Positions 1,650 to 16,838 of a DNA stretch of 22,339 nucleotides are shown one piece after another; position 1 is the stretch's first letter, and each line of letters starts with the position of its first letter. The notes beneath the pieces are model-generated. The model searched no databases. It was given only the letters and a program-made list of their open reading frames with translations, and was not told the DNA's origin. The stretch is from a virus, in the IMG/VR virus record IMGVR_UViG_3300034418_004457, positions 1 through 22,339 of that record; one strand, written 5' to 3'. The position numbers and the translations under genes were made by a program.

Positions 1650-1665
1650 CCTAACAATTGTTAGG
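1650..1665. repeat. Palindrome copy 1 (CCTAACAATTGTTAGG)
   Basis: Exact 16-bp palindrome, extended to a perfect 18 bp (1649-1666). It lies between the last stop codon of the early operon and its terminator. Unlike copies 2-8 it does not precede a start codon on the minus strand, and the GGAGATAAC arm is on the opposite side, as if the element were inverted. Confidence 0.95.
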
Positions 1666-1678
1666 TAGTCTGGATCAG

Positions 1679-1810
1679 TTATTCTTCCTCTTCGTCCTCT
1701 TCTTCATCTAGGTCAAGTTCATCCAACCACCACTTGCGTCCGTAATCTTCATCACCTACGCGGTTCGGGTCATCCGGTATTGTACGCCAATCGTTATACA
1801 CTCTGCCCAT
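1679..1810 (-). CDS. Small acidic protein, 43 aa
   Basis: A short gene that starts at ATG 1810 inside the end of the upstream gene (17-base overlap). AGGAG is placed about six bases before the start. The protein is unrecognised and has a Trp-rich centre (RKWWLDEL) followed by an almost purely acidic tail (DLDEEEDEEEE). Acidic tails of this kind occur in DNA mimics and in proteins that bind basic partners, but nothing else supports either role. It is the last gene before the terminator. The good ribosome binding site and the overlap are the reasons for calling it. Confidence 0.65.
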   Translation of the reverse strand: MGRVYNDWRTIPDDPNRVGDEDYGRKWWLDELDLDEEEDEEEE

Positions 1811-2015
1811 CGTCAGTCTCCTGAATGTCTTTTAATATCTCACGCTTTAATCGCTTGCGATCTTCGGGTGAACAATTCGACACTATACGTATGTCCTTAA
1901 GTCCAAGCTTGTAAGAGCTGGGTTGCCAGTACAGTGCAGCTTCTGGGTCAGTGACAAGCATGTACTGCCACTTCTCCCCGTCAATGTCTAAGTAGAAGGA
2001 TTCACCTTTCATCAT
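1794..2015 (-). CDS. Unknown protein, 73 aa
   Basis: I do not recognise this protein. It begins with beta-prone sequence (SFYLDIDGEKWQYMLV) and ends in a charged helix (PEDRKRLKREILKDIQ). There are two adjacent ATG codons (2015 and 2012). AAGGAG lies four bases before the first and seven before the second, so either may be used. The start overlaps the last codons of the ribbon-helix-helix gene, and its own end overlaps the acidic 43-residue gene, so the three are translationally coupled. Confidence 0.75.
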   Translation of the reverse strand: MMKGESFYLDIDGEKWQYMLVTDPEAALYWQPSSYKLGLKDIRIVSNCSPEDRKRLKREILKDIQETDDGQSV

Positions 2016-2181
2016 CGTTCTCCTTCATTCTCATGTGCATCACCCTAGCCAACGCTTCACGCATGGCTTTGGTGTAGTTAGGTTCTTGTTTGTAAAAGTC
2101 TACTACCTCACGCGGTAACCGCATGTTCACATGAACCAGCGGCTCCTTTCTTTCTGCTTGCTTTCTTTCAACTTCATTCAT
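2002..2181 (-). CDS. Ribbon-helix-helix (CopG/Arc/BrnA-like) DNA-binding protein, 59 aa
   Basis: After a short charged N-terminus come a beta strand (LVHVNMRL, residues 15-22), helix A (PREVVDFYKQ, 23-32), a turn with Asn-Tyr-Thr, and helix B (YTKAMREALARVM, 36-48). This is the ribbon-helix-helix order, and the sequence resembles BrnA-type antitoxins and Arc/CopG repressors. Such proteins dimerise and contact palindromic operators with the paired strands, which makes it the best encoded candidate to bind the palindromes repeated through this operon; that link is inference. I use ATG 2181, which overlaps the upstream stop (ATGAATGA) with TAGGTG upstream, rather than GTG 2190. No obvious toxin partner is adjacent, so a toxin-antitoxin role is not favoured. 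Confidence 0.75.
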   Translation of the reverse strand: MNEVERKQAERKEPLVHVNMRLPREVVDFYKQEPNYTKAMREALARVMHMRMKENDDER

Positions 2182-3055
2182 GATAATCACCTACGAGTAC
2201 AAATAAATCTGGTTTGTCTTTGTAACCTATACCGACAGCAAAAGTCCCATCGTCCAACAGCTTCAACATGCCCAACTGCGATCTCATTTTTGTCGGCATT
2301 TGATCTAGCGGGTACACAGTGTTGTTTCTCCCACTGCGAGCCACGCAATACTCATCGGTAAGCCACACTGCGGTGCTTTGCGAACTTTGTGTTACGCTAG
2401 TAACGACTTCCGCCTCGTCATACGTATCCCTTAGTTTGTCTAAGTCACCCTTAAAGTTTGCTTCCCGCAGTATTGGTTTGTAGTGGTCGAAATTCTGCAT
2501 GATATACGGAGCCAGACACTTTAGAGCAGCCGCGATATCGTTCCATTTGTAACGAGCTTCTCGATCCTCTCTATCCATCCGCCGCCGCATGCCCCTACTA
2601 TGCACTTGCAGTTGTTCAGGTAAACTCAACGGTTTGAAGTAACGCTTAATGTCTTTCCTGAGCTTGGCAGAGGATAAGCTTGCTATATGGTCTTTACGCT
2701 CCATCGCTTTACGTATCTTTTCGTTACGCAACTCCATTGTTTGGTCATATAGATTGATTGTTACCCATCCGACTGTCGTGCCATCCATCAAACAGTTTAC
2801 GTTCGTAACAGCATTGTTATGATTGTCGTCCGTAATCTGCCATTCATAGTGCGGGGGTAAGTCTGATACCGACTCCACAAACAGCCAAGCGATCTGTGCA
2901 TCTGTGTCGAAATCATGCTCCACAGGTTCGCCGTTATTGGCTTGCCTCAAATTTTCATCTAGCCCATGAGTTTCCAAGTAAGCAGTGGAGCCATTTAGCT
3001 CTATGCCCTTACCTGCAAGTATTTCCCTAGCCTCTCTCAAAGTAATATGTTTCAT
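2174..3055 (-). CDS. Unknown phage protein, 293 aa
   Basis: No family recognised. The middle third is rich in basic residues and helical (around RGMRRRMDREDREARYKW). The C-terminal third looks beta-rich, ending DDGTFAVGIGYKDKPDLFVLVGDY. There is no signal peptide or membrane segment. The frame is open to a TTG at 3070, but ATG 3055 follows GGAGGACAC directly and is the clear start. The stop of the upstream gene is only eight bases before this start, and the downstream RHH gene overlaps its end, so it belongs to a five-gene coupled block (3921 down to 1679) that opens at palindrome copy 2. Confidence 0.8.
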   Translation of the reverse strand: MKHITLREAREILAGKGIELNGSTAYLETHGLDENLRQANNGEPVEHDFDTDAQIAWLFVESVSDLPPHYEWQITDDNHNNAVTNVNCLMDGTTVGWVTINLYDQTMELRNEKIRKAMERKDHIASLSSAKLRKDIKRYFKPLSLPEQLQVHSRGMRRRMDREDREARYKWNDIAAALKCLAPYIMQNFDHYKPILREANFKGDLDKLRDTYDEAEVVTSVTQSSQSTAVWLTDEYCVARSGRNNTVYPLDQMPTKMRSQLGMLKLLDDGTFAVGIGYKDKPDLFVLVGDYHE

Positions 3056-3063
3056 GTGTCCTC

Positions 3064-3921
3064 CTACCAATCAAATTGTCCAAGTATCTTGTCTACCTTC
3101 GTTTTCATGTTCTCACGTTGGTAGTCGTACGCTTTCAGCTCTTCGACATCTGCGGATAGCAGCGTTATCTCTAGCTGTTTACGAGCACCCTCCAGTTCAG
3201 GGTCTCCTGTTATGTTCATATGCTTAAGTAAATCGCACAGCTCCTGTGCGTTATCAACGAACGTACTGTGGATGCGTTTCTTAGGCGCATCATCGTCATC
3301 AGTAGCAGCAAGCTTGTCGCTCATGTGCAAGAGTAGACTGTGCAGTTTTTCCCACGGCTTCTTCATTGCTTCGGCTAACTGGTCTTGCACCTCGGCATCG
3401 CAAGCCTCCATTACATCCTTAACCTCTGCATTGTTCGCATCAAGACAGAAGTGCCCGCTTGCAGGTACTGGCTTACACCGATACTTGAACTTGTACCGCG
3501 CAGCGATCTCGCTAGGGTCTGGGTACAGGTCAGGGTTAGCCATCGCGCCCAACTCCTGCATGGCGATTTGTATCTCGCTTGCAAATCTGGGTACGAGTGT
3601 ATTCACAAGCTTGTCGAAATGTGCCTCATGCTTCTTCATTTCCTCCTTCCACTCAAAGAAGTAAGTCATAGGCAGCAGCCTCGCGCCTTGATCCTCCCAC
3701 GGTAGGGTTACTTTGTTGTTCCAAGTCCGTACCTTAGCAGCGTACTTGTTGATCTCGGATGCAAGCGTAGTGCCTGCCATTATGTCCTTCTCTACACGAA
3801 CCGCCATGCTGTTCGCATTGTTAAGCTGAGCCAAACGCTCCGCTTGTTGCTTGTCTTTACGCTCAGTTCCCCAAGTGGAAATGTTCAACGTAACTAGCAT
3901 TGCTCTTTTATGAATACCCAT
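3064..3921 (-). CDS. Unknown protein, 285 aa, next to the MoxR/VWA module
   Basis: A soluble, mostly helical protein with long charged segments; I see no catalytic motif. It opens the block after palindrome copy 2 and follows the ATPase and VWA genes. Phage and plasmid MoxR/VWA clusters often include a helical protein of about this size (DUF3150 is one such family, from memory). Membership is a guess to be tested. The open frame extends upstream through the palindrome to a TTG giving a false leader MLANGDNT; the real start is ATG 3921, preceded by GGAGATAACACT. Confidence 0.8.
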   Translation of the reverse strand: MGIHKRAMLVTLNISTWGTERKDKQQAERLAQLNNANSMAVRVEKDIMAGTTLASEINKYAAKVRTWNNKVTLPWEDQGARLLPMTYFFEWKEEMKKHEAHFDKLVNTLVPRFASEIQIAMQELGAMANPDLYPDPSEIAARYKFKYRCKPVPASGHFCLDANNAEVKDVMEACDAEVQDQLAEAMKKPWEKLHSLLLHMSDKLAATDDDDAPKKRIHSTFVDNAQELCDLLKHMNITGDPELEGARKQLEITLLSADVEELKAYDYQRENMKTKVDKILGQFDW

Positions 3922-3937
3922 AGTGTTATCTCCATTA

Positions 3938-3953
3938 GCTAACAATTGTTAGG
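3938..3953. repeat. Palindrome copy 2 (GCTAACAATTGTTAGG)
   Basis: A 14-bp perfect palindrome core, lying 16 bases ahead of ATG 3921 on the minus strand and 10 bases after the stop at 3964. The segment 3919-3965 matches 6553-6599 (copy 4) at 46 of 47 positions. Confidence 0.95.
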
Positions 3954-3963
3954 TTATCTAGGT

Positions 3964-4209
3964 TTATGATTCAGGCTTGCCTCTCATCTTGCCAAGCCCG
4001 TACAATTCTTCACTCATCAGTTCAAAACGAACTAGTCCTACTTCCGCAGGTGCAAGCTTGTACACATGATGCGTCTCTTCTTTGGTAGACCAGTTGGTCT
4101 TGTGTTCGTAAACCTCGCAACCGCAATCATGTATCATGTTTACAATAGCCCCCGCTTGTTCCGCCTCCATAACGAACTTGCGGTCATTAAACTCAAACAA
4201 TACTTTCAT
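3964..4209 (-). CDS. Unknown protein, 81 aa, coupled to the VWA gene
   Basis: Not recognised. It is small, with a beta-prone start (MKVLFEFNDRKFVMEAE), a central Cys pair (DCGCEV) and a Gly/Lys-rich end. The ATG overlaps the TGA of the VWA/metallopeptidase gene, with GGAGGACAT before it, so it is translated together with that gene. This coupling suggests a small partner of the VWA protein, but only by position. Confidence 0.8.
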   Translation of the reverse strand: MKVLFEFNDRKFVMEAEQAGAIVNMIHDCGCEVYEHKTNWSTKEETHHVYKLAPAEVGLVRFELMSEELYGLGKMRGKPES

Positions 4210-5453
4210 ATGTCCTCCGATACGTTTATCGTCTTACCCACAGGGGCAGTTATCTTTTCCTTGTTTGTGATCATCCACAGAACTGGTGCAGTCCAAGTAC
4301 CCCAATCATATATCTCACCATCAGTCAGCATGATCACCGCATCAGGTTTGATACCTTTCTCCTTCAAGTATTTACATACGCAGTTAGGATCAGTGCCGCC
4401 ACCTCCGTATATATTCATAACGTCAGGAGCATTGGTAAAATTGTCAGCGGTATACTCTTCGTGGAACCCGACACTACCATCCCAATCGATCAAGTGAATC
4501 TTCTCGATGCGTACCATCTTAGCGATAGCCACCATTTCACTTGTTGCTTTGACTAGCCTACCCTTGTGGTGCATTGAGCCGGATGCGTCCCGACAGAACG
4601 CTACCTCTTTGACACTCTCGCCTACCAACGTGGGAAGATAGTCTCCTTGATGCAAGAACCTACGGTTAGGTTTACGCCACGAACTCTCTTGCTTATCAGT
4701 GCATGACATCTGAACAAAGTCTCGAAACTGCCGCTTCCAATTGACTTTGCTTGTGACTAGGTCTTTAAGTCCAAGCTTGTCATGTCCTTCGCCCTGACCT
4801 GCCGCATCGTCCATCTTCTTTGCAGCCATCATGCCTTGCCGTATTGCTTGCTTGACATCGCTTTCCAGTTTCTGGGCTTCCTTCTCGGTCATCTCCTTAG
4901 CGGCTTCCCAATCATGGGCATCGAACCCGCCGCCTCCGGCATCGTCCCCATCACCGGCATCGGTTTCCCCATCGTCGCCCTCTCCGCCTCCACCGTTTTT
5001 GGCTTTGGCTTGCAGGATTCTGAATACCTCCATCACGGTCTTGCCGAGATACTGCTCATCGTACAAACCGACTACCTTTCCGTCCTTACGTGGAAGAGCG
5101 ATAAGTGTCTCTTCCGGGTCGGCCAATACGAGCTTACCGTTAATCCAGTAATCACAAGCGGCGTTAGCCAGCTCGTGGTCGATCTCGTGTAACTTCCTAT
5201 ATACAGATAGATGGCGCGCAGCTTTGTGCATATTCTCGTGGCAGAGAATGAACCCACAGGATTTCTCCGGTTGATCAAAGCTGAACACGAACTCAGGGTT
5301 GTACCACTCGTTGCGGCCATCGGTCATAGCAGTCGGCACGTCCGTAGTTAGATGCGTTTTGCCAAGCATCATCACGCCGCTTAGCCCTACGAACATACGG
5401 CTACGCATCAGGCCGATCTTCACTTTCTTGAACCGTCTTATCGGTGCTTGCAT
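4206..5453 (-). CDS. VWA-like protein with HExxH metallopeptidase motif (MoxR partner)
   Basis: A 415-residue two-domain protein. The N-terminal part has HENMH at 72-76 (HExxH zinc-protease signature) followed by ACDYWING (residues 99-106), where D101 could be a further ligand. This matches the putative metallopeptidase domain (PF13203-like) found with VWA-like DUF2201 proteins (PF09967). A Gly/Asp-rich linker (about 153-177) and a charged helix follow. The C-terminal VWA-like domain has a MIDAS motif DASGS at 289-293, then GGGGTD, then LTDGE. In bacteria this architecture is paired with a MoxR AAA+ ATPase, and such a gene lies directly upstream here. The proposed role is a metal-dependent adaptor or protease working with the ATPase to remodel a target; the phage substrate is unknown. 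The start is ATG 5453; the upstream TTG is a palindrome artefact. Confidence 0.85.
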   Translation of the reverse strand: MQAPIRRFKKVKIGLMRSRMFVGLSGVMMLGKTHLTTDVPTAMTDGRNEWYNPEFVFSFDQPEKSCGFILCHENMHKAARHLSVYRKLHEIDHELANAACDYWINGKLVLADPEETLIALPRKDGKVVGLYDEQYLGKTVMEVFRILQAKAKNGGGGEGDDGETDAGDGDDAGGGGFDAHDWEAAKEMTEKEAQKLESDVKQAIRQGMMAAKKMDDAAGQGEGHDKLGLKDLVTSKVNWKRQFRDFVQMSCTDKQESSWRKPNRRFLHQGDYLPTLVGESVKEVAFCRDASGSMHHKGRLVKATSEMVAIAKMVRIEKIHLIDWDGSVGFHEEYTADNFTNAPDVMNIYGGGGTDPNCVCKYLKEKGIKPDAVIMLTDGEIYDWGTWTAPVLWMITNKEKITAPVGKTINVSEDI

Positions 5454-5469
5454 AGTGTTATCTCCATTA

Positions 5470-5485
5470 GCTAACAATTGTTAGG
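5470..5485. repeat. Palindrome copy 3 (GCTAACAATTGTTAGG)
   Basis: It lies between the ATPase stop (5488) and the start of the VWA gene (5453), with the same spacer and ribosome binding site cassette as copies 2 and 4. Confidence 0.95.
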
Positions 5486-5487
5486 TA

Positions 5488-6555
5488 TTACAGAAGGTCT
5501 TGGTTCTCAGCACACCAGTGAGCGAACGCCTCACACTCGAAAGCGAACTTCATCTTCTTCTTATGCTTGGCTAGGTTAGAGCAGAAGATTGCCTGCCACT
5601 CCAAGTCAACTCTCGCCAAGTATTGAAGTACAGGAGGTAGCGTGTGTTGCTCCACTTTCTCCAACATACCAAAGCTCATTACGGCGATTGCGCCTTCGTC
5701 CTCTGGGACTCTTGCAGTTAAAGGGTTAGCCACAATAGTCTCAAAACGATCAAGGCTGTCTTGGTGACGAATGTAGGAATTCAGGCTCTCCGCAGCAGAG
5801 AAGCCAACCGTACCTTGCATGGCAGCAAGCAGACTTTCTTGGTCGTACTTGTCACGGTTATCAATGATGGTGCATACCTTCTCCAGTGTACGCGGAGAAC
5901 ACACTGCGTTTTGTGGTACGTTCGGATTGAAGATGAACTCGTTACCATCCTGTCCTTCATCGGTATAAGACGCTAGACACTGCGGGTGTTGGTCAACCCA
6001 AGCTAGTGCAACGTGACAGAGATCTTTTAGTACAGCGTAGTTATGTATCCACTCCTCGGCGGTAGGCTTAGCCAACTCCAAGCGGGTGATACGTTGAATG
6101 GTATGAGCTTGCATTGAGTCACCCACACCGTCAGTTTCTAGGTTACCAGTTAGGAAGATATAGGAACCTTCAGGCACTGGCATGTCACCGCATCGGGGAT
6201 TGTCGATCTCGAACATGGGATGCGTCATGTTCTTCACCGGAGTCATGGCTTTGGGCCACTCGTCTAGCATGATTGCAACCGGCTTCCCAGTGTGCAGACC
6301 GAATCGAGCATTGGGATAATAGCGGGTGACCTTCGCTTCATGGTCAATGACCGGCATAGCTACATCGCCCAAGTCCAGATTGGGACAGTCAATGTACGCC
6401 GTCGGGAGTCCAGTCCTTCTGCCTATCTCCTTAAGTATTGCGCTCTTACCAATTCCAGGCTCCCCTACTATGTAGTAACGGATTTGCGGGTTAGCAAGAA
6501 TCTGGTTAACGATCTGCTCGTGGTTCAGCTTTGTTGCGATTTGTACTTCACTCAT
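5488..6555 (-). CDS. MoxR-family AAA+ ATPase
   Basis: A 355-residue single AAA+ module. Walker A is GEPGIGKS (31-38), Walker B is VAIMLDE with D98 and E99, and sensor 1 is FLTGN (134-138). It continues into a DGVGDSMQAHTIQRITRLEL stretch like the pre-finger region of MoxR/AAA_5 proteins paired with VWA proteins. MoxR ATPases form hexameric rings that remodel or insert cofactors into partners through a VWA adaptor, and that adaptor is encoded next. It is the first gene after the internal promoter at 6634-6662. The start is ATG 6555 with GGAGATAACACT upstream; the apparent TTG start comes from the palindrome. A CobS-like ATPase is a related alternative. Confidence 0.88.
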   Translation of the reverse strand: MSEVQIATKLNHEQIVNQILANPQIRYYIVGEPGIGKSAILKEIGRRTGLPTAYIDCPNLDLGDVAMPVIDHEAKVTRYYPNARFGLHTGKPVAIMLDEWPKAMTPVKNMTHPMFEIDNPRCGDMPVPEGSYIFLTGNLETDGVGDSMQAHTIQRITRLELAKPTAEEWIHNYAVLKDLCHVALAWVDQHPQCLASYTDEGQDGNEFIFNPNVPQNAVCSPRTLEKVCTIIDNRDKYDQESLLAAMQGTVGFSAAESLNSYIRHQDSLDRFETIVANPLTARVPEDEGAIAVMSFGMLEKVEQHTLPPVLQYLARVDLEWQAIFCSNLAKHKKKMKFAFECEAFAHWCAENQDLL

Positions 6556-6571
6556 AGTGTTATCTCCATTA

Positions 6572-6587
6572 GCTAACAATTGTTAGG
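6572..6587. repeat. Palindrome copy 4 (GCTAACAATTGTTAGG)
   Basis: It lies 16 bases ahead of the ATPase start. The TAA stop of the small upstream gene (6583-6585) is inside the palindrome. It is in the predicted leader of the transcript from the promoter at 6634-6662. Confidence 0.95.
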
Positions 6588-6729
6588 TTATCTTGGTTTG
6601 TTTACGGGTTTTGGATACAACTTTTATTGTACTATTATATAACATTGTGGTACGAATTTCAACAGATGTACGGATACCTCTGCCGTAATCGAGTACCGGC
6701 TTATGCTTACTTTGTTTGTACCTAAGCAT
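6583..6729 (-). CDS. Small basic protein, 48 aa
   Basis: A short gene with an excellent GGGAGG ribosome binding site five bases before ATG 6729; its first base is the last base of the upstream stop codon (TAATG). The product is Lys/Arg/Thr-rich, with no acidic residue except D14 and E24, and is unrecognised. A near-consensus promoter lies inside its coding sequence on the same strand, and its stop codon lies inside palindrome copy 4. The segment may therefore be kept partly as a regulatory leader for the ATPase operon. Confidence 0.55.
   Translation of the reverse strand: MLRYKQSKHKPVLDYGRGIRTSVEIRTTMLYNSTIKVVSKTRKQTKIT
6634..6662 (-). promoter_or_regulatory. Strong leftward sigma70-like promoter before the MoxR/VWA block
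   Basis: On the minus strand TTGAAA (6657-6662), a spacer of exactly 17 bases, then a perfect TATAAT (6634-6639). Transcription should start near 6627 and give a leader of about 70 bases containing palindrome copy 4. The spacer contains GTACCACAATG (6643-6653), also present at the rightward promoter candidate near 10272. Confidence 0.75.
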
Positions 6730-6971
6730 TAGTCCTCCCAATATGATCTAAGCTTTAAATAATTACGTGCCCGTTCTGAGCTACTTTTGGTTACTTCCTT
6801 AACTACAATGAACCCAAGCTTACTGGCGAAAAACCTACGCCTTCGTTTGTGTTCGTCCATTGATACACCGAGAAGCACTGGCCCCTCTATGTCCTCCACG
6901 TAGTAAGGCACATTGTTATGGCGAAACACAGAACCCAAGTCCACTACCGAACCGTCTTTGCGTTTGATCAT
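6729..6971 (-). CDS. Unknown protein, 80 aa
   Basis: No family recognised. It is a small basic protein, beta-prone in the first half (RKDGSVVDLGSVF, PVLLGVSMDE), with an Arg cluster (KRRRRFF) around residue 45. The start overlaps the stop of the 306-residue gene as ATGA. The only purine-rich ribosome site (GAGGAA) is rather far upstream, so its translation probably depends on coupling. Confidence 0.75.
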   Translation of the reverse strand: MIKRKDGSVVDLGSVFRHNNVPYYVEDIEGPVLLGVSMDEHKRRRRFFASKLGFIVVKEVTKSSSERARNYLKLRSYWED

Positions 6972-7888
6972 CTGAAATATTCCTCGTTAGGGTCTTTAGC
7001 TACAATGCCAAGCGGTGCATCCACTTCATCGAATATCTCGTCGCGGTACGCCAGTTTAATGCTCTCGCGCACTCTTGCTCGAACTGCTTGGATGGGCATC
7101 TTCCAGTTTGCGGTATACTGGCCGTTGACCCATTTCCTGTCATGTGTAGCAGCATTGGCAAAGTAGAATCTCACCAGATCGCCCCAACCTTCCTTGTTCT
7201 CCACGTCCTTCATAACATCGCAGCGTTTTAGCTCAGCGTACTGGCCTACGTGCTTCCAACGATCCCGAACCCAACGACGATTCGGCTCCCTCAGTTCATG
7301 TTCCACGCTCATAAAAGAGTCTGGGTCTACGATCTTATGTAAAGCGGAGAGGTGCTTTATGAATGGGTCGAACTGTTTGTATATCTCCGCAGCCTTAGAT
7401 GTATTTATTAGGTGCTTCTTAATAGGCCACGGTTCTGGCGGAGTCATGCCTCCATCTTCTAGCTTAAATATTAAGCTCGCGCCGTCTGGTATGTACCAAG
7501 ACTGGTTGTTCTTACGGTCGTGTACGTAACACTTGTTATCAGTAGTGTGCATCGTGCAGTGGTAAGGCAGCAGACTAGAAGCAAACCCACACGTTGAGTT
7601 GCTTGGATAAGAGTTGTTCACCTCCACGTATCCATTCTCGGTGTAGGTCAACACGTCTGTATCGTACAGACGGCAAGCAATGGCTCTAACCGGTTCGCCT
7701 CCGGATTGGGGGAAGCTCATAACCGCGTGCCAGATACTGTAGTGCGTTTTCTTGCGTCCATTTTCTGTGTTGCACAGCGGACGCAGTCCGGCGTTCTTGC
7801 CTCTGGTTAAGGGCTTAACAGAATCATAGTGACTCTTGGCACTACGATAGCCGTCCAACATAGGGAAATCAGTAAAGTTATTAAACAT
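6968..7888 (-). CDS. Unknown phage protein, 306 aa
   Basis: No family I can name. It is a soluble protein rich in aromatic and His residues, with several Cys scattered rather than paired, a PPEPWPIKKH segment in the middle and an Arg-rich helix near the end (VRARVRESIKLAYRDE). It opens a three-gene block after palindrome copy 5, with GGAGATTCACT before ATG 7888. Length and isolation suggest an early protein acting on the host or on phage DNA, but there is no motif to support a choice. Confidence 0.78.
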   Translation of the reverse strand: MFNNFTDFPMLDGYRSAKSHYDSVKPLTRGKNAGLRPLCNTENGRKKTHYSIWHAVMSFPQSGGEPVRAIACRLYDTDVLTYTENGYVEVNNSYPSNSTCGFASSLLPYHCTMHTTDNKCYVHDRKNNQSWYIPDGASLIFKLEDGGMTPPEPWPIKKHLINTSKAAEIYKQFDPFIKHLSALHKIVDPDSFMSVEHELREPNRRWVRDRWKHVGQYAELKRCDVMKDVENKEGWGDLVRFYFANAATHDRKWVNGQYTANWKMPIQAVRARVRESIKLAYRDEIFDEVDAPLGIVAKDPNEEYFR

Positions 7889-7903
7889 AGTGAATCTCCA
7901 TTA

Positions 7904-7919
7904 CCTAACAATTGTTAGC
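7904..7919. repeat. Palindrome copy 5 (CCTAACAATTGTTAGC)
   Basis: It precedes ATG 7888. The TAA stop codon of the upstream membrane protein (7915-7917) is part of the palindrome. Confidence 0.95.
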
Positions 7920-8091
7920 CTATCAGGAACATAATTACGGTGAAGGCCCAGAACACTGAAACCATAACTACACCACCGACAACTATTCTGGTTACGGTCA
8001 TAAACACACTCTCCTCTTCATCAGCCCATTTGTGCTGATTGTGCGGATCATGCACGTTAAAGCTCTCGCGGAAGTTATCCTGCTCGTTCAT
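7915..8091 (-). CDS. Small membrane protein, 58 aa, one C-terminal transmembrane segment
   Basis: A polar, charged N-terminal half (residues 1-35) is followed by one long hydrophobic stretch from about 36 to 57 (VVGGVVMVSVFWAFTVIMF), then the end of the protein. It has no cleavable signal peptide, so it should be tail-anchored with the N-terminus in the cytoplasm. The start is ATG 8091 behind AGAGGAGAACAACA; the frame continues eight codons upstream, but that part contains the ribosome binding site. It could be an inner-membrane effector of early infection. A holin is possible from size but unlikely in an early, leftward position. Confidence 0.75.
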   Translation of the reverse strand: MNEQDNFRESFNVHDPHNQHKWADEEESVFMTVTRIVVGGVVMVSVFWAFTVIMFLIG

Positions 8092-8111
8092 TGTTGTTCT
8101 CCTCTGATGGG

Positions 8112-8336
8112 TCAAAAGCGACCAGTATGTTCTCTGGCATAAAATAAACCGGCTAGTTTCAACTGGTTTATTGCCGCCTCTATGTTGCCAATGGCTGTAT
8201 GGTAGTAATGTGGTGCAAATGTCGCAGACTCAATCCGACCACTTAGACTTGGACTTTCATCGTCTCCAAACAATAGAGACTCCTGAAACTCCTCCAAAGC
8301 TTTAACGGCTTCATCTATATCTTCATATGTTTTCAT
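8112..8336 (-). CDS. Unknown protein, 74 aa
   Basis: Not recognised; acidic and mostly helical (DIDEAVKALEEFQESLLF, IGNIEAAINQLKLAGLFYA). The ATG at 8336 overlaps the stop of the 165-residue gene as ATGA, with GGAG upstream inside that gene. A longer open frame to 8390 is not supported. It is translated with its upstream neighbour and followed 20 bases later by the small membrane protein. Confidence 0.75.
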   Translation of the reverse strand: MKTYEDIDEAVKALEEFQESLLFGDDESPSLSGRIESATFAPHYYHTAIGNIEAAINQLKLAGLFYAREHTGRF

Positions 8337-8830
8337 GCTTCGTCCATCTCCTTCATTATCTTGTAGACAAGGGCCTGTAGCTTGACCCACGAAATGCCAA
8401 CGTACTCATTGTCGGCGGTGATCTCGAAACCATCGTCCTTTAGGGCTAGCTCCTTAAGCCTAACGACCATAGTCCGCGCCCGTCTGTGGGTAGTCACCTG
8501 ATTGAATGCAGCTAGCGCACCCAAGTCGGGCATTTTGATATCGCCCAAGTCTAGGTCTGGGGTCTCATGAGTGGGAGGCACTGGGGTCATGTTCGTCTTG
8601 GCAATATCTAACGGCCTCGCTTTTGTGATGGTCTCGTTAATCAGCTTGTCTATTTCCTCGGTGAATTGAGCATGCTCCTTCTCGATTTGCTTCTTCCTGC
8701 GTCCTTCCTGCATCCTGTCTACACGCGCCTTGCGCTCCGCGTCTGTCATATTATTCCAGTGGTTAATATTGTTGACGGAAGCTTGCAGTGCAAATTGCTT
8801 GGTCTTACGACCGTCTTTCTTCTTAGTCAT
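8333..8830 (-). CDS. Unknown coiled-coil protein, 165 aa
   Basis: A strongly basic N-terminus (TKKKDGRKTKQ) and a charged helix likely to form a coiled coil (about residues 30-70, EGRRKKQIEKEHAQFTEE) precede a Pro-rich linker. A second domain contains THRRARTMVVRL and ends in a helix. No known family comes to mind. The start is ATG 8830 with GGAGATACTACA, directly after palindrome copy 6; the apparent TTG start inside the palindrome is rejected. Confidence 0.75.
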   Translation of the reverse strand: MTKKKDGRKTKQFALQASVNNINHWNNMTDAERKARVDRMQEGRRKKQIEKEHAQFTEEIDKLINETITKARPLDIAKTNMTPVPPTHETPDLDLGDIKMPDLGALAAFNQVTTHRRARTMVVRLKELALKDDGFEITADNEYVGISWVKLQALVYKIMKEMDEA

Positions 8831-8846
8831 TGTAGTATCTCCAAGA

Positions 8847-8862
8847 CCTAACAATTGTTAGG
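8847..8862. repeat. Palindrome copy 6 (CCTAACAATTGTTAGG)
   Basis: Here the symmetry extends to a perfect 20-bp palindrome (8845-8864). It sits before ATG 8830 and contains the TAA stop (8858-8860) of the upstream CxxC protein. Confidence 0.95.
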
Positions 8863-9094
8863 TCGTTCGCTTAGGGTTTGATTGCTTGAGAATGTTACGC
8901 GCATCGTCATGGCTGTAAGCCTGATACGCAGTTTTGCCCATGCATAATATGGGCAGTTCGTGCCGAACATCGCGGTGAGTATGCTTCGCACAATTGATAC
9001 AGTAATCAAAGTGCTTGGCCCGCTCGGCAGGATACAGTTGGTCGCAAAACACGCATGGTGTCTCGGACAATAGATGTTGTTTGACCTTGCTCAT
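8858..9094 (-). CDS. Putative zinc-ribbon protein, 78 aa
   Basis: Two Cys pairs, CVFC (14-17) and CINC (32-35), 14 residues apart and flanked by basic residues and His, give a compact zinc-ribbon or zinc-finger outline. The C-terminal half is polar. Such mini-proteins are frequent among early phage genes and often bind nucleic acids or host polymerase; the actual target is unknown. The start ATG 9094 overlaps the stop of the upstream gene as ATGA. The same frame is open to 9202, but that part overlaps the real upstream gene and is not used. Confidence 0.7.
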   Translation of the reverse strand: MSKVKQHLLSETPCVFCDQLYPAERAKHFDYCINCAKHTHRDVRHELPILCMGKTAYQAYSHDDARNILKQSNPKRTT

Positions 9095-9369
9095 CGGTGG
9101 TTGATCCAATGAAGGCGGTTGTAGCAGTGTTTGGGAAGTAAGTAGCGGTGGTGGTTGTTGACCACTCTGCGGCCATTCAAAGCACAGACACTGTTGACCC
9201 ATGTGTCACGGTCATAGCCTGCAATTGACTGGGAACGCCCAAGCGGAGGACGCTTATTGAATGAACGCCTAGTGTGGCCGTAGAGTGTAAGTGCGTATAC
9301 GCAACGAATGAGGGTCGCGCATCGGTCACCCATAGATGGGTCAAAGTTTAAGGCTTTGTACTTAATCAT
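9091..9369 (-). CDS. Unknown basic protein, 92 aa
   Basis: Not recognised. It is rich in Arg, His, Asn and Cys (four Cys, not in CxxC pairs) and strongly basic overall, with no predicted membrane segment. It begins at ATG 9369 behind GGAGATTCACT in the same cassette as the other palindrome-led genes, and its end overlaps the zinc-ribbon gene. Two reading frames are open across 9091-9202. I assign that stretch to this gene because it has the cassette start. Confidence 0.65.
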   Translation of the reverse strand: MIKYKALNFDPSMGDRCATLIRCVYALTLYGHTRRSFNKRPPLGRSQSIAGYDRDTWVNSVCALNGRRVVNNHHRYLLPKHCYNRLHWINHR

Positions 9370-9384
9370 AGTGAATCTCCATTA

Positions 9385-9400
9385 CCTAACAATTGTTAGC
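9385..9400. repeat. Palindrome copy 7 (CCTAACAATTGTTAGC)
   Basis: It precedes ATG 9369 with the same spacer and ribosome binding site as copy 5. The TAG stop of the upstream 46-residue gene (9401-9403) abuts it. Confidence 0.95.
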
Positions 9401-9541
9401 CTATCGACCAACGTGAAAACGAACGAAAGTAGAAATGTCAGTACCGACACGAGCATGCTCGATCAACCAAGTGCGCGGCCATACTGCGGTTAGCAAGCGT
9501 GTAGATTGCTTGCGCGTATCCATCAGAAAAGTAAATCGCAT
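9401..9541 (-). CDS. Small basic protein, 46 aa; first gene of the leftward early operon
   Basis: A short gene starting at ATG 9541 with GGAGACGCACT, in the same palindrome-led cassette as seven other starts, about 90 bases after the leftward promoter at 9632-9660. The product is unrecognised, basic (several Arg), with a hydrophobic/aromatic centre (AVWPRTWLIEHARV). The position right behind the promoter suggests very early expression. It ends immediately before palindrome copy 7. The cassette and the lack of any other explanation for it support the call; no homology is visible. Confidence 0.6.
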   Translation of the reverse strand: MRFTFLMDTRKQSTRLLTAVWPRTWLIEHARVGTDISTFVRFHVGR

Positions 9542-9556
9542 AGTGCGTCTCCATTA

Positions 9557-9572
9557 CCTAACAATTGTTAGG
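9557..9572. repeat. Palindrome copy 8 (CCTAACAATTGTTAGG)
   Basis: A perfect 18-bp palindrome (9556-9573), located in the leader between the leftward early promoter and the first gene (ATG 9541). Confidence 0.95.
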
Positions 9573-9631
9573 TTATCCAGATTGTTGTGGCGTTATTGCC
9601 CGTAACTCCATCTTACCGTTTTTTTATTACC

Positions 9632-9660
9632 ATTGTACCACAAAGTTATAGGAATTGCAA
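9632..9660 (-). promoter_or_regulatory. Leftward early promoter
   Basis: On the minus strand TTGCAA (9655-9660), exactly 17 bases, then TACAAT (9632-9637), preceded by TGG, which also gives an extended -10. The start should be near 9625, with a leader of about 85 bases that includes palindrome copy 8 before the first ATG. GTACCACAA (9635-9643, plus strand) overlaps the -10. Confidence 0.75.
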
Positions 9661-9705
9661 GCCGAGTCAGGATAGGTATCCGGAAAGTTATGAGAGTAAA
9701 GTTAT

Positions 9706-9736
9706 AATGTTACGGAAAAGGGCTGTAATGTTATGG
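9706..9736. repeat. AATGTTAYGG direct repeats
   Basis: AATGTTACGG (9706-9715) and AATGTTATGG (9727-9736) start 21 bases apart in the same orientation. A third copy is in the left arm of the inverted repeat (9812-9820) and a reversed one in the right arm (9922-9930). The spacing of two helical turns for the first pair is iteron-like. Confidence 0.6.
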
Positions 9737-9803
9737 GGGGCATAACGGCGTGGTACAGGCTGAAGCCCAGATGTGGCGTGGGTTTGAGACGAATGTGTAT
9801 TGT

Positions 9804-9938
9804 ATTGTTATAATGTTATGAGAAAATAAGAATAAGAGAGATATAGAGAGGAGAGGGAACTTCCTGTGCTTACATACGCAGAGAGGCCCGTCCTATCCCT
9901 CTCTAAGATTAGTTTTTTGGGCATAACATTATAACAAT
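9804..9938. repeat. 17-bp perfect inverted repeat flanking a purine-rich stretch
   Basis: ATTGTTATAATGTTATG (9804-9820) recurs exactly in reverse complement at 9922-9938. The 101 bases between begin with a run of almost only A and G (9820-9858) and contain a 7-bp hairpin AGAGAGG/CCTCTCT (9880-9904). Each arm contains TATAAT, so the arms could also be outward or inward -10 elements; on the minus strand the right arm has TTATCA 17 bases before TATAAT. Confidence 0.7.
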
Positions 9939-10017
9939 AGGTCTTTTGCCTGATAAATCAAGCAGTTACGGCGTAACAAAGCAAAAACCAAAACGTAACA
10001 ACGTAACAATACCTTTT

Positions 10018-10154
10018 CGTGGGCTTCCATCCCCTTCGTAACTATCATGTCCATAACTCTGTATCCACAAGACCTAACAATTGTTAGCTAATCCGGACGC
10101 GTTACGCGGTGTCTGGATGCGATGCGTGGGCTTCCGTCCCCTTAATTACTATCA
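10018..10154. repeat. Duplicated 30-bp segment
   Basis: 10018-10047 and 10125-10154 match at 26 of 30 positions and have the same orientation, each on the left side of a palindrome (copies 9 and 10). Read leftward, both could encode a related short peptide (IVTKGMEAH and IVIKGTEAH), so they look like two relics of one palindrome-led small gene. Confidence 0.65.
10073..10088. repeat. Palindrome copy 9 (CCTAACAATTGTTAGC)
   Basis: It lies inside the control region. On its left a degenerate version of the usual cassette (TTGTGGATACAGAGTTATG) precedes a weak 41-codon open frame. Confidence 0.95.
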
Positions 10155-10170
10155 CCACCCCGATTTTCGC

Positions 10171-10191
10171 TCTGGATCGAATCGATCCAGA
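10171..10191. repeat. 21-bp inverted repeat (10-bp arms, 1-base centre)
   Basis: TCTGGATCGA and TCGATCCAGA are exact reverse complements around one A. It abuts palindrome copy 10. TCTGGAT/ATCCAGA also recurs beside copies 1, 8 and 11, so it may be a second part of the same element. Confidence 0.8.
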
Positions 10192-10194
10192 CGA

Positions 10195-10210
10195 CCTAAC
10201 AATTGTTAGG
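10195..10210. repeat. Palindrome copy 10 (CCTAACAATTGTTAGG)
   Basis: The symmetry extends over 26 bases (10190-10215) with a single mismatched pair, the longest arm of all copies. It lies about 60 bases upstream of the rightward promoter candidate. Confidence 0.95.
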
Positions 10211-10259
10211 TCATCGCCAGACGGCATAATTATCACCGGACAAAAAAATCAGAAAAAGT

Positions 10260-10277
10260 GTACCACAATGATATGAT
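10260..10277 (+). promoter_or_regulatory. Rightward extended -10 promoter candidate
   Basis: TGATATGAT gives an extended -10 (TG at 10269-10270, TATGAT at 10272-10277). There is no good -35 at 17 bases. Immediately upstream is GTACCACAATG (10260-10270), the same 11 bases found in the spacer of the leftward promoter at 6634-6662. It would transcribe the gene at 10344. Confidence 0.45.
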
Positions 10278-10343
10278 GACTACGTCAGCACCAAAACTAA
10301 CCGGCCTCGCTGACGGGCCAACTATGTCCGAGGAGGACACACT

Positions 10344-11114
10344 ATGGAAAACGTAACAAAGACCAACAACTCACAGACCCTTGTTTCTACCACTTACACC
10401 ATTACCGCCGGTGACGTGACCGACCTAATGAAAAACTTGATGGCACTGGGAGCAGACGCCTCACAGGAACAACTGGCAGAAGTAGTGAACGGTCGCGCGT
10501 TGAAGGAGATTTGCGCTGTAAGCAATCTAGGCGAGAGCATATCAGGCAGCGCCGAGCGCGCAGTAGCCGCCGCCTTGAACGTGCTTCTGCCACCGGCAAG
10601 AGCTGCCCAGTACAGCGCTGACGATGATTACGCCGGCTGTGTCGGATGGTTTACCAGTGAGCACGGAGACAAGGATAAAATGGCCAAGGATTTGGCCCCA
10701 CACAAGAAGGAGATTTTCGCGGCATGGAAACACTCTAGCAACGTGAGCACGAAGTACAAGCGGGTCCGGCGATACGGCGCCGAGCTTGCGTATACTGACC
10801 TATACACACTGGAGGAGCGCGACCAACACCGCGCCGAACTGATCGCCGAGACTGGCGAGACTGGCGAGACTGGCGAGAGCGAAGGCGGCAAGCCTAGCCG
10901 CAACCGCGACTTGTACGAGCGCAGCATATGCGAAGGCGGCGCTTTGTATCGCGCTCTGACTAGCACGACCAACAATGACATAATCAAGAAACACCCGAAG
11001 TCGGAAGAGCTTACCGGCTTTCTGGAGCACTTGACCAGAGCTCTGACGGCAGCCGGCGCGCCGCTTGAAGATGACGAACTGGTAGCGCTGATGAAGCAAC
11101 TCGCCAAACGCTAA
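10344..11114 (+). CDS. Unknown protein, 256 aa; lone rightward gene beside the control region
   Basis: Not recognised. It is rich in Ala, Glu, Leu and Arg and mostly helical. The central segment has a basic patch (STKYKRVRRYGAEL) and a short tandem repeat ETGETGETGES, encoded by three exact copies of GAGACTGGC (10848-10874). The C-terminal part (PLEDDELVALMKQLAKR) is helical. The start ATG 10344 follows GAGGAGGACACACT. By eye it is more GC-rich than its neighbours. It is the only gene with its own promoter candidate and terminator, and it is transcribed away from the early operon, a typical arrangement for a regulator or an abundantly made early protein. No helix-turn-helix is evident, so the regulator idea is unproven. 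Confidence 0.85.
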   Translation: MENVTKTNNSQTLVSTTYTITAGDVTDLMKNLMALGADASQEQLAEVVNGRALKEICAVSNLGESISGSAERAVAAALNVLLPPARAAQYSADDDYAGCVGWFTSEHGDKDKMAKDLAPHKKEIFAAWKHSSNVSTKYKRVRRYGAELAYTDLYTLEERDQHRAELIAETGETGETGESEGGKPSRNRDLYERSICEGGALYRALTSTTNNDIIKKHPKSEELTGFLEHLTRALTAAGAPLEDDELVALMKQLAKR

Positions 11115-11133
11115 GCAACACTTAGCGCAACCG

Positions 11134-11164
11134 AGCGCGGCCCTCACCGGCCGCGCTTTTTTTT
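11134..11164 (+). terminator. Strong rho-independent terminator after the lone rightward gene
   Basis: A 9-bp perfect GC-rich stem AGCGCGGCC/GGCCGCGCT (11134-11142 with 11149-11157), a 6-base loop, and a run of eight T (11157-11164). It starts 20 bases after the stop codon at 11114. Confidence 0.93.
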
Positions 11165-11189
11165 GTCCCGCTGAAACGCAACCGGATGA

Positions 11190-11205
11190 CCTAACAATTG
11201 TTAGT
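11190..11205. repeat. Palindrome copy 11 (CCTAACAATTGTTAGT)
   Basis: The rightmost copy, just after the terminator. Flanking GGAT/ATCC extends the symmetry to a near-palindrome of 28 bases. No gene start follows on either strand; no further copy exists in the head module. Confidence 0.93.
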
Positions 11206-16201: not shown

Positions 16202-16399
16202 ATGGCAAAAACCGTCTTTGACGTGCTCGATGAAAAACTTGCTGAATTACAGCAAAGCCAAGAAGAATTTCTTATTGAGGCAGGAGCTAACACCTTCGCT
16301 CAATACAGGGAATCGTGCGGGGTGATCCGAGGTCTAGCCGCCGCTCGCAGAGAAATAGCTGACCTTTCGCGTAACTATATGGAAGATGACGATGACTGA
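16202..16399 (+). CDS. Small head-module protein, 65 aa
   Basis: Four bases after the portal stop; AGGAGG lies 10 bases before ATG 16202, inside the portal gene. It is a helical protein ending MEDDDD, with GVIRGLAAARREIADL in the C-terminal half. Small proteins of this outline are common between portal and capsid genes in aquatic phages; I know no assigned function. Its end overlaps the GroES-like gene. Confidence 0.8.
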   Translation: MAKTVFDVLDEKLAELQQSQEEFLIEAGANTFAQYRESCGVIRGLAAARREIADLSRNYMEDDDD

Positions 16400-16838
16400 A
16401 GCGATGATAAGTATTACCCCTGACGGGGTACAAGCTGAAACCGCGCTAGAAAAACAGAGAAGAGAGAAGATAGCTGAGCAGGAACGTGAATTAGCGGAGT
16501 TGGAGCAGAAAATCCCAAAACCTGCTGGATATCATGTGCTTATTGCTTTGCCAAATGCGGAAGAAACTTTTGGGCATAGCGAAATTCTTAAGTCAAATCA
16601 AACACTTAGAGACGAGTACATTCTTTCTATTATTGGTTTAGTCATAGATATGGGCGATCAGTCTTATATGGACAAAGAAAGGTTCCCTACCGGCCCTTGG
16701 TGCAAGCAAGGTGACTATGTGATGTTTCGAGCAAACACAGGCACCCGATTTAAGATAGGTAGCCAAGAGTACAGACTAATGAACGATGACTCTATCCAAG
16801 CAGTCGTCCCCGATCCGAGCGGTATAACTCGCGCATAG
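16392..16838 (+). CDS. GroES-like co-chaperonin (Cpn10 fold), 148 aa
   Basis: Residues from about 42 to the end follow the Cpn10 plan: PAGYHVLIALP (start strand), an exposed segment where GroES has its mobile loop (about HSEILKSNQTL), then IIGLVIDMGD, then GPWCKQGDYVMFRANTGTRF and KIGSQEYRLMNDDSIQAVV, closely mirroring the GroES C-terminal half (VGDxVLF...GxExxxDGEEYLILxEDDIxAV). An extra N-terminal charged helix (about 40 residues) is not part of GroES. Known phage examples (T4 gp31) cap GroEL to fold the major capsid protein, and the position between portal and scaffold fits. ATG 16392 has GGAAG six bases upstream; ATG 16386 is an alternative. Whether the loop still docks to GroEL cannot be seen. 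Confidence 0.75.
   Translation: MTEAMISITPDGVQAETALEKQRREKIAEQERELAELEQKIPKPAGYHVLIALPNAEETFGHSEILKSNQTLRDEYILSIIGLVIDMGDQSYMDKERFPTGPWCKQGDYVMFRANTGTRFKIGSQEYRLMNDDSIQAVVPDPSGITRA

Follow-up and report, generated by a model that had tools for sequence, protein, structure and literature searches.

The leftward region of this virus genome encodes three linked proteins, an AAA+ ATPase, a DUF2201 zincin-VWA protein and a 285-aa protein, and what is new is the third of these, joined to an already known pair. The window, by which we mean the whole stretch of DNA that was analysed, is a complete virus record of 22,339 bases. Its ATPase/VWA pair corresponds to gp24/gp25 of phage N4 and the MoxR plus peptidase-vWA pair of jumbo phages, a match on which the initial annotation was silent, and both families are recorded widely (343 and 231 records, N4 gp24/gp25 included). 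The analysis establishes the composition of the module, its intact catalytic motifs and its conserved linkage. We give an even chance to the reading that the locus is a three-part AAA+ protein-remodelling machine of mobile elements, whose action during establishment would be intracellular and directed at a complex of host or element proteins, and which would not be dedicated to virion assembly.

Table 1 Features of the module and its surroundings, in window coordinates
Feature	Position	Strand	Remarks
293-aa operon gene, fast-evolving, not universal	2174..3055	-	
285-aa third component, remote DUF3150 relative	3064..3921	-	
Palindrome CTAACAATTGTTAG	3939..3952		17 nt 5' of the 285-aa ATG
81-aa operon gene, no regular partner	3964..4209	-	recognised in 2/13 terminase-fetched loci
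DUF2201 protein, N-terminal zincin-like and C-terminal VWA domains	4206..5453	-	415 aa from ATG; N4 gp25-like, phrog_1314
DASGS, MIDAS motif	4575..4589	-	D289, S291, S293, T354 invariant; D378 invariant in A4
HENMH zinc-peptidase motif	5226..5240	-	H72, E73, H76, D101, N105 invariant in phage relatives, N4 and LIT1
Palindrome CTAACAATTGTTAG	5471..5484		17 nt 5' of the VWA ATG
AAA+ ATPase, midasin/MoxR clade	5488..6555	-	355 aa from ATG; N4 gp24-like, phrog_1297
Walker B IMLDE	6259..6273	-	D98, E99 invariant
Walker A GEPGIGKS	6442..6465	-	G34, G36, K37 invariant in 34 sequences
Palindrome CTAACAATTGTTAG	6573..6586		17 nt 5' of the ATPase ATG
Sigma-70-like promoter match	6634..6662	-	11/12 positions, 5' of the ATPase gene

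In the window, whose coding share is 84%, the terminase, portal and capsid genes occupy one strand and the trio the other; genes near the trio encode a 3'-5' exonuclease of DNA polymerase A type and a small protein that matches Hjc/VRR-NUC weakly. The portal relatives, MinM2/Pag-Yong1, HTVC023P/027P and CRP-901/902 (41-44% portal identity), are phages of about 50-65 kb; no phage record close to the window at the DNA level was found. In relatives fetched by their terminase, the structural genes keep the other strand and the trio keeps the leftward region. The label 'early', which the initial annotation gave to the operon, fits this layout of opposite strands and replication-type neighbours, and agrees with the assignment of N4 gp24/gp25 to the middle genes (PMC4193335). 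The same annotation credited the operon with its own strong promoter: a sigma-70-like -35/-10 match does precede the ATPase gene, but the 13 promoter-like sites of the region do not exceed the 11.8 +/- 3.6 found in shuffles, which leaves the promoter plausible and unproven. Elsewhere, a GroES-like co-chaperonin (16386-16838, plus strand; phrog_3188 at 3e-9) lies between the portal and scaffold-like genes, and one is annotated in HTVC027P too.

The ATPase reading frame sits on the minus strand where it had been placed, with Walker A, Walker B and sensor 1 all kept; in an alignment of 34 sequences including N4 and LIT1, N138 of sensor 1 is invariant, as are the Walker residues. The protein matches phrog_1297 at 1e-44 and is related to its N4 and LIT1 counterparts by phmmer (2e-5 and 7e-9). 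Its attribution to MoxR holds at the level of the clade: the ATPase family profile finds midasin as its top PDB match (1.3e-18), with Clp far behind (4e-8), and midasin is itself a remodeller made of an AAA ring plus a MIDAS domain. However, the window ATPase scores below every Pfam gathering cut-off (AAA 19.3/21.2 bits, AAA_5 13.2/22 bits) and has no AAA_3 match in Pfam; the AAA_5 cut-off is passed by its relatives on plasmids and in MinM2. Because its own score is under cut-off, we classify it, on profile evidence, as midasin/MoxR-like and not as a formal member of the MoxR family.

Its partner is likewise found on the minus strand in the expected place, with HENMH and a full MIDAS intact. 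Both DUF2201 domains (PF13203 and PF09967) pass their curated cut-offs far beyond chance (DUF2201_N 94.6 vs 23.2 bits; DUF2201 43.7 vs 26.4 bits), and phmmer relates the protein to those of N4 and LIT1 at 1e-16 and 4e-20. An AlphaFold model of moderate quality was obtained (pLDDT 78, pTM 0.58), and Foldseek supports a VWA fold with matches of modest significance (best E-value 1.3e-4), the MIDAS domains of midasin among them. In motif alignments of 33-34 sequences that include N4 and LIT1, the catalytic residues of both proteins are invariant at 45-52% mean column identity, and D378 of the VWA protein shows no exception among the 29 rows of the phage lineage. Since this invariance holds at about half mean column identity, both proteins appear to be under selection as active machines, an activity predicted from the alignments. 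The initial view that the machine is intact was thus borne out, with Walker, sensor 1 and HExxH residues and the five MIDAS residues invariant or nearly so in 29-34 relatives, and a relic or degenerate pair is ruled out by the invariant motifs. One plasmid VWA protein (L262) lacks HExxH, therefore proteolysis may be dispensable in the module. Many records give gp25-type proteins an HNH endonuclease label, for example NC_008720 gp25 and NC_055784. We reject this label of phrog_1314 and INPHARED, as an HNH Pfam match is absent and DUF2201_N plus DUF2201 explain nearly the whole protein; 'HNH endonuclease' is probably a wrong name for phrog_1314/gp25 proteins in phage databases.

Three genes directly following the pair, of 81, 285 and 293 residues, had been proposed as possible further components. 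All three are present, but only the 285-aa gene belongs to the module. The 81- and 293-aa genes were discarded as core parts on account of being often missing or unrecognisable in relatives; together with a 306-aa neighbour they could be identified at a smaller number of the 13 terminase-fetched phage loci that have enough flank, a shortfall for which flank limits and search sensitivity can partly account. At these loci, picked by terminase alone and hence independently of the module, the 285-aa gene accompanies the ATPase/VWA pair in 13/13 cases. ATPase, 285-aa and VWA genes are also adjacent, in that order, at all 12 Burkholderiaceae loci (11 genomes, out of 150 searched by the 285-aa family alone), which amount to fewer than 12 independent events, some of the genomes being closely related. 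The gene order varies, from ATP-VWA-285 to 285-ATP-VWA (L010-L014), VWA-ATP-285 (L095) and the ATP-285-VWA of plasmids; therefore the linkage of the trio is not just inherited synteny. Two records, G005 and G006, have the 285-aa gene without a VWA gene. The G005 contig, however, stops a short way upstream of the 306-aa gene, and in G007, which has a nearly equal 285-aa score, the VWA gene lies upstream of that point.

The 285-aa protein of the window has no match by direct Pfam or PHROG search. Among 31 members of its family, two match DUF3150 at E<=1, weakly (best 6e-4), and even the highest-scoring relative, at 15.2 bits, falls short of the DUF3150 (PF11348) cut-off of 24.9; the MinM2 copy of the gene carries a DUF3150 annotation. 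When alignments were compared by hhalign with seven canonical DUF3150 proteins, the mixed phage/plasmid alignment (A5) gave a probability of 94% (E 1.4e-7, 218 columns) and the phage-only alignment (A1) 79%, whereas the control alignments, of the ATPase and the VWA protein, gave about 1%. The DUF3150 profile check proposed earlier therefore supported kinship between profiles but not membership by the curated cut-off, and because that cut-off failed we regard the protein, by profile comparison, as a remote DUF3150 relative and not as a family member. Its AlphaFold model is moderate (pLDDT 81, pTM 0.51), and a Foldseek fold search with it returned no PDB match at E<=0.001. DUF3150 was not found by name in the literature searched.

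Annotated conjugative plasmids carry the same trio, several of them beside VirB/Trb conjugation (type IV secretion) genes, and no phage genes were seen around the Burkholderiales plasmid trios in the stretches read. A canonical DUF3150 protein is encoded at one locus (L236) between an AAA_5/CbbQ_C ATPase and a CobT Pfam match. Rows of CobS-like, DUF3150 and CobT-like genes, with HExxH in the CobT-like neighbour, recur as a parallel to the module, and on a Salmonella genomic island a relative of DUF3150 has ssb and bet genes in its vicinity; the loci of this parallel are L235-L243 and L264.

The leftward region is also marked by an exact 14-bp palindrome, CTAACAATTGTTAG, of which the window holds 11 copies (at 1651, 3939, 5471, 6573, 7905, 8848, 9386, 9558, 10074, 10196 and 11191; range 1651-11204) against 0.14 expected even when two mismatches are allowed. 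All are intergenic, with at most 4 bp of overlap with a gene end; six leftward start codons have a copy 16-17 nt upstream, the copy at 1651 stands just before a terminator-like hairpin and two copies occupy a divergent gap. Among related loci with arrays, 19/20 have a palindrome copy where the ATPase gene starts, 14/22 where the VWA gene does and 12/25 where the 285-aa gene does, but 0/24 have one at terminase or portal; in these counts near-identical loci are partly retained, some loci were fetched by the palindrome CTAACAATTGTTAG, and a fragment of the window itself makes up one row. Equivalent places in other phages carry ATTGAATATTCAAT, ATAGGAATTCCTAT, GAGACGTCTC or CTAACATATGTTAG palindromes (L026, L031, L037, L086 and L163 differ in this way), and one phage (L163) has two versions, CTAACAATTGTTAG and CTAACATATGTTAG, ahead of different genes. 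Since the palindrome centre changes yet stays symmetric, the pattern favours a DNA-binding dimer over an RNA loop. The array has the look of stoperators or start-associated sites whose specificity changes, and similar start-associated sequences are described from mycobacteriophages of cluster K (PMC3203893). A 62-aa ribbon-helix-helix-like protein (2002-2190, minus strand), recognised by eye without a Pfam match and present in many relatives, is a candidate regulator. A role as the palindrome binder is not supported, since its putative DNA-contact strand stays constant while the palindrome changes (L026, L028). Between the leftward region and the terminase, a 256-aa gene with no family assigned (10344-11114, plus strand) has palindromes on either side; the relatives found (L006, L007, L016, L020, L117, L177, L190) are all on loci with the same CTAACAATTGTTAG palindrome.

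How the three proteins might work together can be proposed from their families. ATP hydrolysis by a ring of the midasin/MoxR-clade ATPase would be coupled to a VWA/MIDAS subunit that holds the substrate protein, so that the ring could pull or reshape a protein bound in this way. The N-terminal zincin domain may clip the held substrate, and the helical 285-aa DUF3150-like subunit could serve as an adaptor or scaffold that bridges or selects. The mechanism that we infer is thus one of remodelling, with an ATPase ring working on a protein that its two partner subunits present. Conjugative plasmids form no virions, and the occurrence of the trio on them, like its placement in the early region, suggests intracellular action on a complex of proteins from the host or the element; we therefore rank this above dedicated virion assembly. 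Mobile DNA probably uses the trio as a machine for protein remodelling in general and not only as a virion-assembly tool.

A chaperone/protease that remodels and trims structural proteins during virion assembly is an alternative that we think rather unlikely for this trio. Virion assembly with peptidolysis was proposed for the jumbo-phage MoxR and peptidase-vWA pair by Iyer et al. (2021), who cite the MoxR-VWA pair of Acidianus two-tailed virus, for which such a role is reported (PMC7824862), and in roseophage RPP1 a second structural module adjoins the N4 gp24/gp25 homologues (PMC4193335). However, the module of the window runs opposite in direction to the late genes, amid replication-type genes, an arrangement preserved in the terminase-fetched relatives, and its presence on virion-less conjugative plasmids argues against virion assembly as the sole role. 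In a special form of the preferred reading, to which we assign a still lower probability, the trio would serve counter-defence by stripping or cleaving an immune protein complex of the host. Its occurrence both on phages and on conjugative plasmids, with early-region or transfer-region genes around it, speaks for this, but no PADLOC model of an anti-phage defence system was matched by the phage proteins, no known anti-defence neighbour was seen, and conservation across the whole lineage would exceed that of a typical anti-defence accessory gene.

Metal insertion, as a CobS/CobT-like auxiliary metabolic function in cobalamin synthesis, is very improbable. CRP-810-type phages, whose terminase is near that of HTVC023P, have clustered cobS and cobT that are listed as cobalamin metabolic genes (PMC11288001), and canonical DUF3150 is accompanied by CobS-like and CobT-like genes; yet the VWA protein of the window is a DUF2201 protein with invariant HExxH and not CobT, and the window ORFs that were tested yielded no CobN-type chelatase subunit and no other recognisable gene for cobalamin. 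The CRP-810-type cobS/cobT may instead be this kind of machine, and some of the phage genes classed as cobS/cobT 'metabolic genes' seem to merit a second look. More speculatively, and at odds we consider low, an AAA+ ATPase, a DUF3150-type protein and a metallopeptidase-VWA protein would form a ternary system widely shared by phages, conjugative plasmids and genomic islands for counter-defence or host takeover, with phage cobS/cobT being in part its cousins and not cobalamin genes.

Compared with known systems, the protein-remodelling module shares with RavA-ViaA and other MoxR-VWA pairs the logic of an AAA+ chaperone with a VWA cochaperone, although neither a zincin domain nor a DUF3150-like gene is known from those pairs. 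N4 gp24/gp25 (Schitoviridae; phrog_1297/phrog_1314) belong to the same two families, adjacent or nearly so and with HExxH and MIDAS kept, at about 19-25% identity to the window proteins. Unlike the window, N4, LIT1, SBP1 and CRP-7 have no detectable 285-aa/DUF3150-like relative beside the pair, and the structural genes of the window, with a MinM2/HTVC027P/CRP-901-like portal, are of another lineage than those of N4. The N4 proteins are listed as an ATPase and a vWFA protein without known function (PMC2784036), and no functional data on them were found in the literature searched. The jumbo-phage pair of group 2.2 has, by the description given (PMC7824862), the same domain architecture, whereas the window links a DUF3150-like third gene to it in a podovirus-type and not a jumbo genome. 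The cyanophages MinM2, Pag-Yong1 and Pra-JY27 cluster MoxR ATPase, DUF3150-annotated and VWA-like genes and have a related portal (43%), but the order is ATP-DUF3150-VWA with small genes inserted, and the 285-aa proteins are about 25% identical. Burkholderiales plasmids likewise place ATP-binding, 285-aa-family and VWA-like genes side by side, though as ATP-285-VWA and adjoining type IV secretion genes. The bacterial CobS-like/DUF3150/CobT-like trio also sets an AAA+ ATPase, a DUF3150 protein and an HExxH-bearing partner in one row, but its partner is of CobT type where that of the window is of DUF2201 type, and its DUF3150 protein scores over the Pfam cut-off. Through the constant third partner and the plasmid trio, the pair of N4-like phages, which has stood for years without a function, becomes a testable three-protein system.
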